Positions 34,631 to 36,320 of a DNA stretch of 64,000 bases are shown here, one piece after another. The position numbers and the translations under genes are program-made. The notes under the pieces are model-generated. The model saw only the letters and a list, made by a program, of their open reading frames with translations. It searched no databases and was not told where the DNA came from. The stretch comes from Chitinophagaceae bacterium (lineage in GTDB: Bacteria > Bacteroidota > Bacteroidia > Chitinophagales > Chitinophagaceae), in NCBI GenBank assembly GCA_019638595.1, contig JAHBTJ010000001.1:62001-126000 (forward strand). Direction: 5' to 3'. Each line of letters begins with the position of its first letter. Position 1 is the stretch's first letter.

Positions 34631-35230
34631 TTATAAGAGTAAAAAAATGAACAGGAACTCTAAGGCTACGCGGTCTTTATTTTCTGCAACCTTTTGCCGT
34701 ATATTTCTGAGTGCCAGCACCATATGTTTTTTTACCGTTTCCAGGGAAATACCCAGCCGCCCGGCTATGTCTGCATGTGGTAAGCCTTCATCCCTGCTTA
34801 ACAGGTAAATTTTTTGTTGCTGTGCCGGTAATTGGCGTACGGCGTATTCAATCAGGCTTTTATAGTAGTTATCTTCTTCTGAAGAATGTTGCAGGTTGTA
34901 TTGTCTGTACAGGTTATTCGTTTTCCATTGGTTGTGTTTTGCCAGCTCTTTGCCTGTTTTTTTGAGGTAGCTAAACATATGATTGCGTGCTATGGTAAAC
35001 AAATAGGCTGAAAAATTTTCTACCTCAGCTATTTTTTCCCGATGCCTCCACAATTTCATAAAAATGTCCTGTACTAATTCTTCTGCTACAGGTCCTGTTC
35101 CTGCAACCTGTTTTACGAAAGCTCCTATTCGTTGATGATAAAGTTGAAAAAGCCTGCTGAACGCAAACTCATTGCCCTGTATGAGCAACTGAACAAGCTC
35201 CTTTTCATTGTATGTTTCGTACGCAGTCAC
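34631..35230 (-). CDS. FecI-type ECF sigma factor (PUL 2)
   Basis: This 199-residue sigma-70 family protein has region 2 (about 25-90, EELVQDIFMKLWRHREKI and FSAYLFTIARNHMFSYLK) and region 4 (about 130-185, LPAQQQKIYLLSRDEGLPHADIAGRLGISLETVKKHM), with a hydrophobic tail (EFLFIFLLL) often seen in this subgroup. It should transcribe the downstream SusC/SusD genes once FecR lets go. Translation appears to start at a GTG, because the region upstream of the conserved EKELVQLLIQGNEFAF has no nearby ATG. A MITE-like element begins 53 bases upstream of the GTG, target duplication included. Confidence 0.94.
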   Translation of the reverse strand: MTAYETYNEKELVQLLIQGNEFAFSRLFQLYHQRIGAFVKQVAGTGPVAEELVQDIFMKLWRHREKIAEVENFSAYLFTIARNHMFSYLKKTGKELAKHNQWKTNNLYRQYNLQHSSEEDNYYKSLIEYAVRQLPAQQQKIYLLSRDEGLPHADIAGRLGISLETVKKHMVLALRNIRQKVAENKDRVALEFLFIFLLL

Positions 35231-35282
35231 TCGTTTTGGTTATCAACTTCAATGCAAACTATAAAAAAAAGTTATACTTCGT

Positions 35283-35405
35283 GTTTAATTGGGTGCATTT
35301 AAAATTGTCGCCGGTTGGTGGGGAGGGGCAGCCAGCCGTGGGCGGTGTCTCCACCACCCACATGAAGCAAAGGAGTGCGACAATTTTAAATGCACCCGTT
35401 TAATT
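35283..35405. mobile_element. MITE-like non-autonomous element with 8-bp target duplication
   Basis: A 107-bp element (35291-35397) is bounded by perfect 21-bp terminal inverted repeats (35291-35311 and 35377-35397, outer ends GGGTGCATTT and AAATGCACCC). It is flanked by an identical 8-bp direct repeat, GTTTAATT, at 35283-35290 and 35398-35405. The interior is GC-rich, has partial internal complementarity (GGTGGGGAG against CTCCACCACC) and encodes nothing. Perfect ends and an intact target duplication point to a recent insertion by a transposase encoded elsewhere. The transposase family is not determined. Confidence 0.9.
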
Positions 35406-35580: not shown

Positions 35581-36246
35581 TCAGTGCGCCTTTAGCTTGT
35601 TTTTAAACACCTTCTCAAATTTTTCAAGCTTGGGCTTAATTACAAAATAACAATAAGGCGCTTTTCCATTGAGCTTGTAATAATTCTGGTGATAATCTTC
35701 GGCGGCGTAAAAATTTTTAAAAGGCTCAATAGCGGTAACAATGGGATTGGTAAATGCGCCGCTTTTATCCAGCTCCGCTTTATACTTTTCCGCTTTTTCT
35801 TTTTGTTCTGCATTATGATAAAATATTACGCTCCTGTATTGGGGTCCTATATCATTACCCTGCCGGTTCAAAGTAGTGGGATCATGCGTTTGCCAGAAAA
35901 CTTCCAGCAATTCATCGTACGTAATAACCGAAGGATTAAAAACAACCTGTATCGCTTCCGCGTGACCGGTTGTTTTAGTACACACTTCTTCATACGTAGG
36001 ATTTTCCACATGCCCGCCGCTGTAACCGCTTATTACCTTAGAAACGCCCTTCAGTTGTTGAAACACCGCTTCCGTACACCAGAAACAGCCGTTGCCGAAA
36101 GTGGCGGTTTCCGATGAGCCGTTTGATGCTGTGCTGTGTATATCGTTTTCGTTGCTCATAGTATTTGCTTTGCCGTTATTTTTTTGGACACAGGCAAGCA
36201 ATATACCTGCCGGGATGATTCCCAGCAAAATAAACACATACCGCAT
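35581..36246 (-). CDS. msrA: peptide methionine sulfoxide reductase MsrA, lipoprotein form
   Basis: MsrA reduces methionine-S-sulfoxide in damaged proteins. From the ATG at 36246 the protein has 221 residues with a lipobox (ILLAC, Cys19), so it is exported and membrane-anchored. A low-complexity linker of about 30 residues follows, then the catalytic domain with GCFWC (Cys54 the nucleophile), VISGYSGGHVENPTYEEVCTK cut short in neither end, HDPTTLNRQGNDIGPQYRSV and EDYHQNYY. The frame is open from 36291, but a promoter box lies at 36289-36296, so the longer starts would overlap the promoter. No MsrB domain is fused. Confidence 0.94.
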   Translation of the reverse strand: MRYVFILLGIIPAGILLACVQKNNGKANTMSNENDIHSTASNGSSETATFGNGCFWCTEAVFQQLKGVSKVISGYSGGHVENPTYEEVCTKTTGHAEAIQVVFNPSVITYDELLEVFWQTHDPTTLNRQGNDIGPQYRSVIFYHNAEQKEKAEKYKAELDKSGAFTNPIVTAIEPFKNFYAAEDYHQNYYKLNGKAPYCYFVIKPKLEKFEKVFKNKLKAH

Positions 36247-36288
36247 GGTTGAATGTTTTCTTAGCCTGTGCATATCTTCAGTTCTGTG

Positions 36289-36320
36289 CAAAATTACTGA
36301 TAATAGTAAGTAATTGCGAA
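36289..36320 (-). promoter_or_regulatory. msrA promoter
   Basis: On the minus strand TAATTTTG (36296-36289) matches TAnnTTTG, with TTCG (36320-36317) 20 bases upstream as a near -33 match. The start would be near 36282, leaving a leader of about 36 bases before ATG 36246. Confidence 0.65.

Follow-up and report, generated by a model that had tools for sequence, protein, structure and literature searches.

A Transposase-Less Element Upstream of an ECF Sigma Factor Gene in a Chitinophagaceae Bacterium, and the Promoter-Like Boxes near the Junctions of Its ISKra4-Like Family

Introduction

How does a short palindromic element, perfectly framed by its own ends and by a target duplication, come to lie just upstream of a sigma factor gene, and is it likely to matter to that gene? 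The question is raised by a 64,000-nucleotide stretch of a Chitinophagaceae genome (assembly GCA_019638595.1, contig JAHBTJ010000001.1, positions 62,001 to 126,000), hereafter called the window, in which such an element separates the start of a gene for an ECF (FecI-type) sigma factor from an msrA-like gene. The original prediction for this locus described a MITE-like element that had moved recently and that might supply or remove upstream promoter parts. Here we describe the element, the family to which it belongs, the candidate parents of that family, and the sequences that lie outside its junctions.

Results

The element in the window

The element occupies 35291-35397, a length of 107 bp (Table 1). 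Its inverted repeats match at 21 of 21 positions, both ends reading GGGTGCATTTAAAATTGTCGC, and the two copies of the GTTTAATT duplication match at 8 of 8, just as the original prediction had described them. Apart from these ends, no 21-mer in the 64 kb has an exact inverted copy starting 20-300 bp away, and when up to three mismatches are allowed the end is found twice in the window, against 0.00 times expected (100 shuffles). Short, without a transposase gene, and bounded by terminal repeats and a duplication, the element qualifies as a MITE, a reading further upheld by the many copies, the 8-9-bp duplications, and the full-length elements bearing the same ends that are described below. The gap between element and sigma gene had been put at 53 bases, duplication included; counted to the GTG start codon at 35230, it is 60.

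Both strands of the element fold very stably (RNA z-scores of -8.4 and -6.5 against shuffles), as is expected of a palindromic sequence. Alignment with sister copies reveals an internal deletion in the window copy, where hairpin 1 is left without its right arm. The product of the neighboring sigma gene contains the domains Sigma70_r2 and r4_2, and the genes next to it encode FecR, a TonB-receptor (SusC-like), and SusD.

Table 1. Features of the element and its surroundings, in positions of the window
Feature	Position	Strand	Basis or remark
Target site duplication, left copy GTTTAATT	35283..35290		Read from sequence
Left terminal inverted repeat GGGTGCATTTAAAATTGTCGC	35291..35311	+	Same 21 bp as both ends of full-length L231 and L171
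Left arm of internal hairpin 1 (CGGTTGGTG)	35312..35320	+	Alignment; right arm missing here, present in most aligned sister copies
Internal hairpin 2 (GTGGGCGGTG TCTC CACCACCCAC)	35338..35361	+	Folding and alignment; one plus-strand C-A mismatch
Right terminal inverted repeat	35377..35397	-	Read from sequence
Target site duplication, right copy GTTTAATT	35398..35405		Read from sequence
Putative imperfect -7-like box TATAGTTTG (3-base spacer, not 2)	35255..35263	-	28 bp from junction, in the block conserved in G007; assignment inferred
ECF (FecI-type) sigma factor gene	34631..35230	-	GTG start 60 bp from element; start as given by the ORF list
msrA-like gene (PF01625)	35581..36291	-	Gene end faces the element's other side

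An element-free locus in a congener

When the sigma-msrA region was used in a DNA search, the match to one congener (G007) covered the sigma gene at 84% identity and stopped exactly at the insertion junction, where G007 has a single copy of AATTAAAT and the window has AATTAAAC, the element, and AATTAAAC again. Beyond the junction the similarity is weak: joining the two flanks of the window lifts the alignment score from 129 to 136, and 7 of 500 shuffled right flanks do as well. G007 is also the only one of the 12 genus genomes without family ends in a one-mismatch search. Judged by these sequence comparisons, the congener that lacks the family ends has an element-free sigma locus with a single copy of the target, which is the kind of empty site that the original prediction had envisaged. 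Its further claim of recent movement is moderately supported. The site is element-free in G007, a comparison made at the level of congeners, and perfect ends are uncommon in the family, since just 14 of 84 duplication-bearing elements have fully identical 21-bp ends; the internal deletion relative to sister copies, on the other hand, speaks against it.

Copies in the genome, the genus, and beyond

Within the element's own genome (7.06 Mb in 52 contigs) the end occurs 41 times with at most three mismatches, against 1 for the reversed-pattern control, and the degenerate end GGGTGCATTYMAAATTGTCGC occurs 63 times, again against 1 for its control; these figures count ends, of which an intact element has two. 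The nearest full-length sister copies in this genome are 115 and 112 bp long, at 89% identity. Ends within one mismatch were found in 12 of 58 genomes, comprising 11 of the 12 genomes of the genus (its own included) and 1 of the 46 outside it. A scan of species genomes yielded at least 115 stretches with exact ends, and the 80 stretches among the matches listed all come from Bacteroidota (phylum taken from the name). Viral contigs held no exact match to the end pattern, and the 107-bp element gave no blastn match in plasmids at E 1e-5. The search for further copies that had been proposed for the terminal repeat has, in short, found its ends to be abundant in the genome and the genus, and the relatives do not all carry the same element at the same place.

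Lone ends in the same genome were also considered as the borders of hidden full-length insertion sequences (ISs). None of 20 stretches contained a pair of ends with both a duplication and a transposase, and the lone-end copies that were inspected look decayed or nested. Copies at contig ends of another genome (G003) were likewise rejected as ISs, the 10 tails inspected consisting of MITE ends and other repeats without a transposase.

Anatomy of the family

We compiled 84 distinct elements flanked by a duplication of 8 bp (61 elements) or 9 bp (23), the only two lengths tried; at most one mismatch was allowed in the duplication, and pairs that failed, like lone ends, were dropped. The duplication is perfect in 56 cases, and the elements range in length from 40 to 1275 bp. 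Three positions of the end are variable, and the resulting end variants agree between the two ends of an element in 62 of the 84, where shuffling gives a mean of 17.4 and a maximum of 30.

The class of elements that contains the window copy carries two hairpins. We aligned 23 of the 42 listed elements of 95-135 bp, picked by their likeness to the window copy (four that scored similarly were omitted). Seven of 38 predicted pairs are changed on both sides in at least one of these 23 copies; some predicted pairs are broken in several of them, and covariation contributes little (-0.69 of -54.25 kcal/mol). The Correia, RUP, and ERIC elements are short, multi-copy bacterial MITEs with terminal repeats and internal hairpins; their palindromic interiors are alike in kind to those seen here, whereas their ends and parents are others.

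Several variants deserve mention in their own right. A number of the MITEs (L009 at 1501-1955, L003, L028, L047, L095, and L096) harbor another repeat, whose ends resemble CATAGGCGTCAACTTAAG...CTTAAGTTGACGCCTATG and which was apparently inserted in the hairpin region. One element of 40 bp (L126, 665-704) consists of hardly more than its two ends and yet has a perfect 9-bp duplication. Five elements of 137 bp (L017, L023, L025, L071, and L074) have the same end type around a different, unrelated interior (GTCATGCCGACTGTAAGGAGG... or the complement of this); one type of end can therefore enclose interiors that are not related.

Candidate parents with an ISKra4-like transposase

The original prediction had left the parent transposon unnamed and proposed a search for a full-length transposon with the same ends, which turned up two. 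An element of 1255 bp in a Ferruginibacter MAG (L171) encodes a transposase between ends that are both identical to those in the window, with no duplication visible around it, and an element of 1275 bp in a genome of the same genus (L231, in G006) has both 21-bp ends exact and the duplication AGGCAGCA, with one stop in its transposase frame. In a third copy (L230, in G009) the transposase frame is open and one end has decayed; no parent copy is thus seen intact throughout. As far as sequence comparison can tell, the ends of the MITE are those of the transposase-bearing candidate parents L231 and L171.

The best profile for the transposase is that of the ISKra4 family, with 196 bits for ORF2 alone and 200.1 bits when both frames are read as one, just below the curated cut-off of 205 bits for NCBIfam NF033572; the next best, ISLre2, scores 109.5 and 109 bits. 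Because the score falls so close under the cut-off, we call the family ISKra4-like. Members of the ISKra4 family have GGG ends and duplications of 8-9 bp, traits that are present in the 84 elements, which were compiled with those criteria. In L171 (1906-3160) and L231 (1267-2541) ORF1 and ORF2 overlap at an in-phase A9 run in the -1 frame, and L230 is in another register; the overlap in the former two resembles programmed frameshifting.

Transposase matches occur in 4 of 58 genomes, all of the genus, and in a wider search in 1 of 395 genomes of the class (E up to 1e-20). The ISKra4 family model finds matches in 5 of the 12 genus genomes, and the element's own genome contains no match to either the transposase (protein search) or the family model. 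Of the two, the ends are thus the more widespread among the genomes and the transposase the rarer. Nothing seen in the full-length ISs resembles the interior of the MITE, whose parentage is therefore argued from the ends, the duplication length, and the two full-length examples.

Decayed pieces of transposase, 48-54% identical to the L171 protein, lie beside a CC-type end variant on contigs G008:C11 and G008:C36 (L232 and L235), which may be a sign that particular end variants accompany particular lineages of transposase. An IS1595 parent (8-bp duplications, GGG ends) was considered and rejected: the element's own genome has no PF12762 match, and the transposase found between family ends is ISKra4-like instead of DDE_Tnp_IS1595.

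A promoter-like box at preferred distances from the junctions

The -7 box of Bacteroidota promoters has the consensus TAnnTTTG. As insertion upstream of promoters is described in the available text of a published study of related transposases (PMC3942029), we looked for this word in the outward flanks of the family, scanning several other words alongside it in the flanks of the 84 elements. Their 168 flanks contain TAnnTTTG 11 times at 31-40 bp from the junction, against an average of 1.08 in the other 10-bp bins; when the flanks are rotated, the 31-40 bin has a mean of 2.03 and a maximum of 8, and 0 of 5000 rotations reach 11. Six reversed, complemented, or permuted words occur there 0-3 times, and the inward-facing word occurs 5 times, against 0.54 per other bin. 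TATAAT, TTGACA, and TA-N3-TTTG give no comparable peak, and the last of these, the variant present at the window copy, is not enriched in this set.

A second set was made up of ends with at most two mismatches from all 391 loci, minus the junctions of the first set. Its 271 junctions, 196 of them from loci available to the first test, which had passed them over for want of a qualifying duplication, and 75 from later loci, have 27 occurrences of TAnnTTTG at 31-40 (rotated mean 4.90, maximum 15, 0 of 5000). The six control words occur 0-4 times in that bin and the inward word 4 times (2 and 3 times in the neighboring bins). The 75 later-locus junctions by themselves have 4 matches, against 0.53 per 10 bp farther out. 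No cluster of flanks is common to the two sets, and with one flank kept per cluster the count is 27 in 268 (rotated mean 4.86, 0 of 5000).

When the 413 junctions are combined, the box is found 30 times at 38-41, in 30 unrelated flanks, against 1.3 expected, and a smaller peak lies at 29-34 (16 against 1.9), both of these finer windows having been chosen on the combined data. There is 1 match at 35-37 and there are 3 at 42-50 (2.9 expected), and boxes are also raised at 10-28 (12 against 6.1). Words with one mismatch peak likewise, with 43 against 15.1 at 38-41 and 60 against 22.7 at 29-34. The matches at 38-41 are divided between the 261 junctions of L001-L114 and L230 onward (14 matches), nearly all from the same genus, and the 152 junctions of species-genome scan records (16 matches), a few of which are also from the genus. 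Among the 30 flanks with a box at 38-41, the nine bases lying 27 to 19 before the box include TTTG in 7 (random mean 1.73, 0 of 3000) and TTG in 10 (mean 4.08, 10 of 3000). A -7 box at 38-41, with TTTG placed in this manner, puts the start of the -33 region some 15 bp away from the junction. A sizeable share of family insertions, then, have a promoter-like box at a set distance from one junction; among the 84 elements, only 12 carry an exact box at the registers. The -7 registers, one near 39 and the other near 31 bp, are separated by about 8 bp, as many as the duplication has.

At the window copy TAnnTTTG is absent from both registers (38-41 and 29-34), whether exact or with one mismatch; on the sigma side the closest box with one mismatch lies at 17. 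On that side TATAGTTTGC begins 28 bp from the junction, in a stretch that is almost unchanged in G007. Given the lack of a box at the registers, targeting is a statement about the family, and we infer it for the window copy.

Discussion

We think it very likely that the element is a non-autonomous MITE, mobilized in trans by an ISKra4-like transposase of the prokaryotic Mutator-type DDE class, one that probably landed where it did by a preference for promoters. An ISKra4-like transposase would move the transposase-less 107-bp element in trans, and this transposase, or a complex that it follows, would recognize promoters. While a source of transposase was present, such a preference could have brought the element to the gap between msrA and the sigma gene, where it would now lie upstream of the core promoter and would not be needed for it. 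The palindromic arms might act as an insulator or as a block to readthrough. The position beside the sigma gene is probably a matter of target choice, this copy having just an imperfect -7-like box. The suggestion that the element could supply or remove promoter parts draws no support from the family pattern, which is insertion upstream of the core promoter and would leave the -33 and -7 regions in place; a family that lands upstream of promoters would tend to spare them.

The same MITE could have been inserted at random by its ISKra4-like IS, with purifying selection sparing the intergenic copies, so that promoters lie nearby by default. We hold this to be unlikely. Most junctions, that of the window copy among them, do lack an exact box at the registers, and boxes are somewhat more frequent than expected at 10-28 as well. 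Selection of this sort, however, predicts a minimum distance and not a peak at 38-41 with hardly a match at 35-37 and no excess at 42-50. Nor do rotated flanks ever reach the counts observed, and the reversed, complemented, and permuted words stay at 0-4 in the 31-40 bin.

The element may conceivably regulate the sigma gene, and one might go further and suppose, from its proximity to the start codon, its very stable fold on both strands, and the paired changes among the aligned copies, that it has been recruited to supply an upstream promoter part, a regulator site, an insulator, or an RNA hairpin controlling that gene. Such recruitment appears improbable to us: G007 does without the element at the same locus, hairpin 1 is broken in the very copy that would be in use, the covariation term is small, and distinct junction sequences in the family number in the hundreds. 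A stationary palindromic repeat of the REP kind, which never transposed, could account for internal hairpins with some paired changes, but we give it hardly any credence in view of the 8-9-bp duplications of 84 elements, the existence of a duplication-flanked full-length element whose ends are the same, and the element-free site in G007; moreover, the exact hairpin GGGCGGTG...CACCGCCC occurs at 5 places in the element's own genome, all of them beside or between family ends.

Comparable behavior has been described elsewhere. The available text of Guerillot et al. (PMC3942029) reports that sigma-A promoters have insertions upstream of them, 13-17 bp from the junction, made by part of the ISKra4 group as well as by TnGBS and ISLre2. 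In the classification given there, p-MULT 4 consists of the ISAzba1, ISMich2, and ISKra4 groups, and p-MULT 3 includes ISLre2 and TnGBS; within p-MULT 4, promoter targeting is reported only in the ISKra4 group and a two-ORF arrangement with a -1 frameshift in ISMich2. A preference of ISLre2 and ISKra4 for sites 50-250 bp from genes appears in the available text of PMC9208149. The family described here shares with the ISKra4 group its preference for targets upstream of promoters, and in 2 of its 3 full copies the in-phase A9 overlap resembles the two-ORF frameshift arrangement of the ISMich2 group, so that it may join features which PMC3942029, in that same text, assigns to separate groups. It departs from the ISKra4 family in that the element in the window is a transposase-less MITE and in that the promoter is of the Bacteroidota type. 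ISLre2 and TnGBS insert 15-17 bases upstream of the -35 region (PMC3942029, available text), and here some 15 bp are implied between the junction and the -33 region; yet ISLre2 is a much weaker match to the transposase (109 against 200.1 bits), and TnGBS are conjugative elements, whereas the parents found here (1.26-1.28 kb) carry no conjugation genes.

MITEs that use the ends of an IS are also on record in this phylum's literature, where BrickBuilt, MITEPgRS, and MITE293/700 of Porphyromonas have IS5 ends (PMC4596501) and MITECca01 of Cardinium has IS982 ends (PMC9769881). They are like our element in being short and transposase-less and in bearing the ends of an IS, and BrickBuilt, like the family here, has an interior unrelated to its IS (PMC4596501). 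Their ends and IS families are different, however, and no promoter-distance pattern is described in the available text of either paper. Among the matches listed from the open-licence literature there was no account of an ISKra4-type MITE family, none of a MITE with inverted repeats in Chitinophagaceae, and, for TAnnTTTG, nothing on targeting. What is new here is the accumulation of TAnnTTTG at a fixed distance from 413 family junctions, and it resembles the insertion published for ISKra4, ISLre2, and TnGBS.

In a larger context we speculate, with rather more doubt than confidence, that there is in Bacteroidota a large MITE/IS family with a Mutator-type transposase that reads the promoter of the phylum, either as -33 TTTG and TAnnTTTG or as the RNA polymerase-sigma complex bound to it, and that inserts some 15 bp before the -33 box. 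Transposase-less copies would then mark promoters from genome to genome and would set strong palindromes immediately before core promoters, where these might serve as insulators of transcription. It is unusual for DDE transposases to seek out promoters when they insert, and the available text of PMC3942029 describes the habit for sigma-A promoters. The same targeting with the Bacteroidota promoter, which is a different one, would point to a transposase that follows the promoter complex instead of a single fixed DNA word. The junctions of the family could help to map promoters in Bacteroidota genomes, and what had been suspected to be a regulatory accident beside a polysaccharide-utilization sigma gene becomes a likely outcome of target choice.
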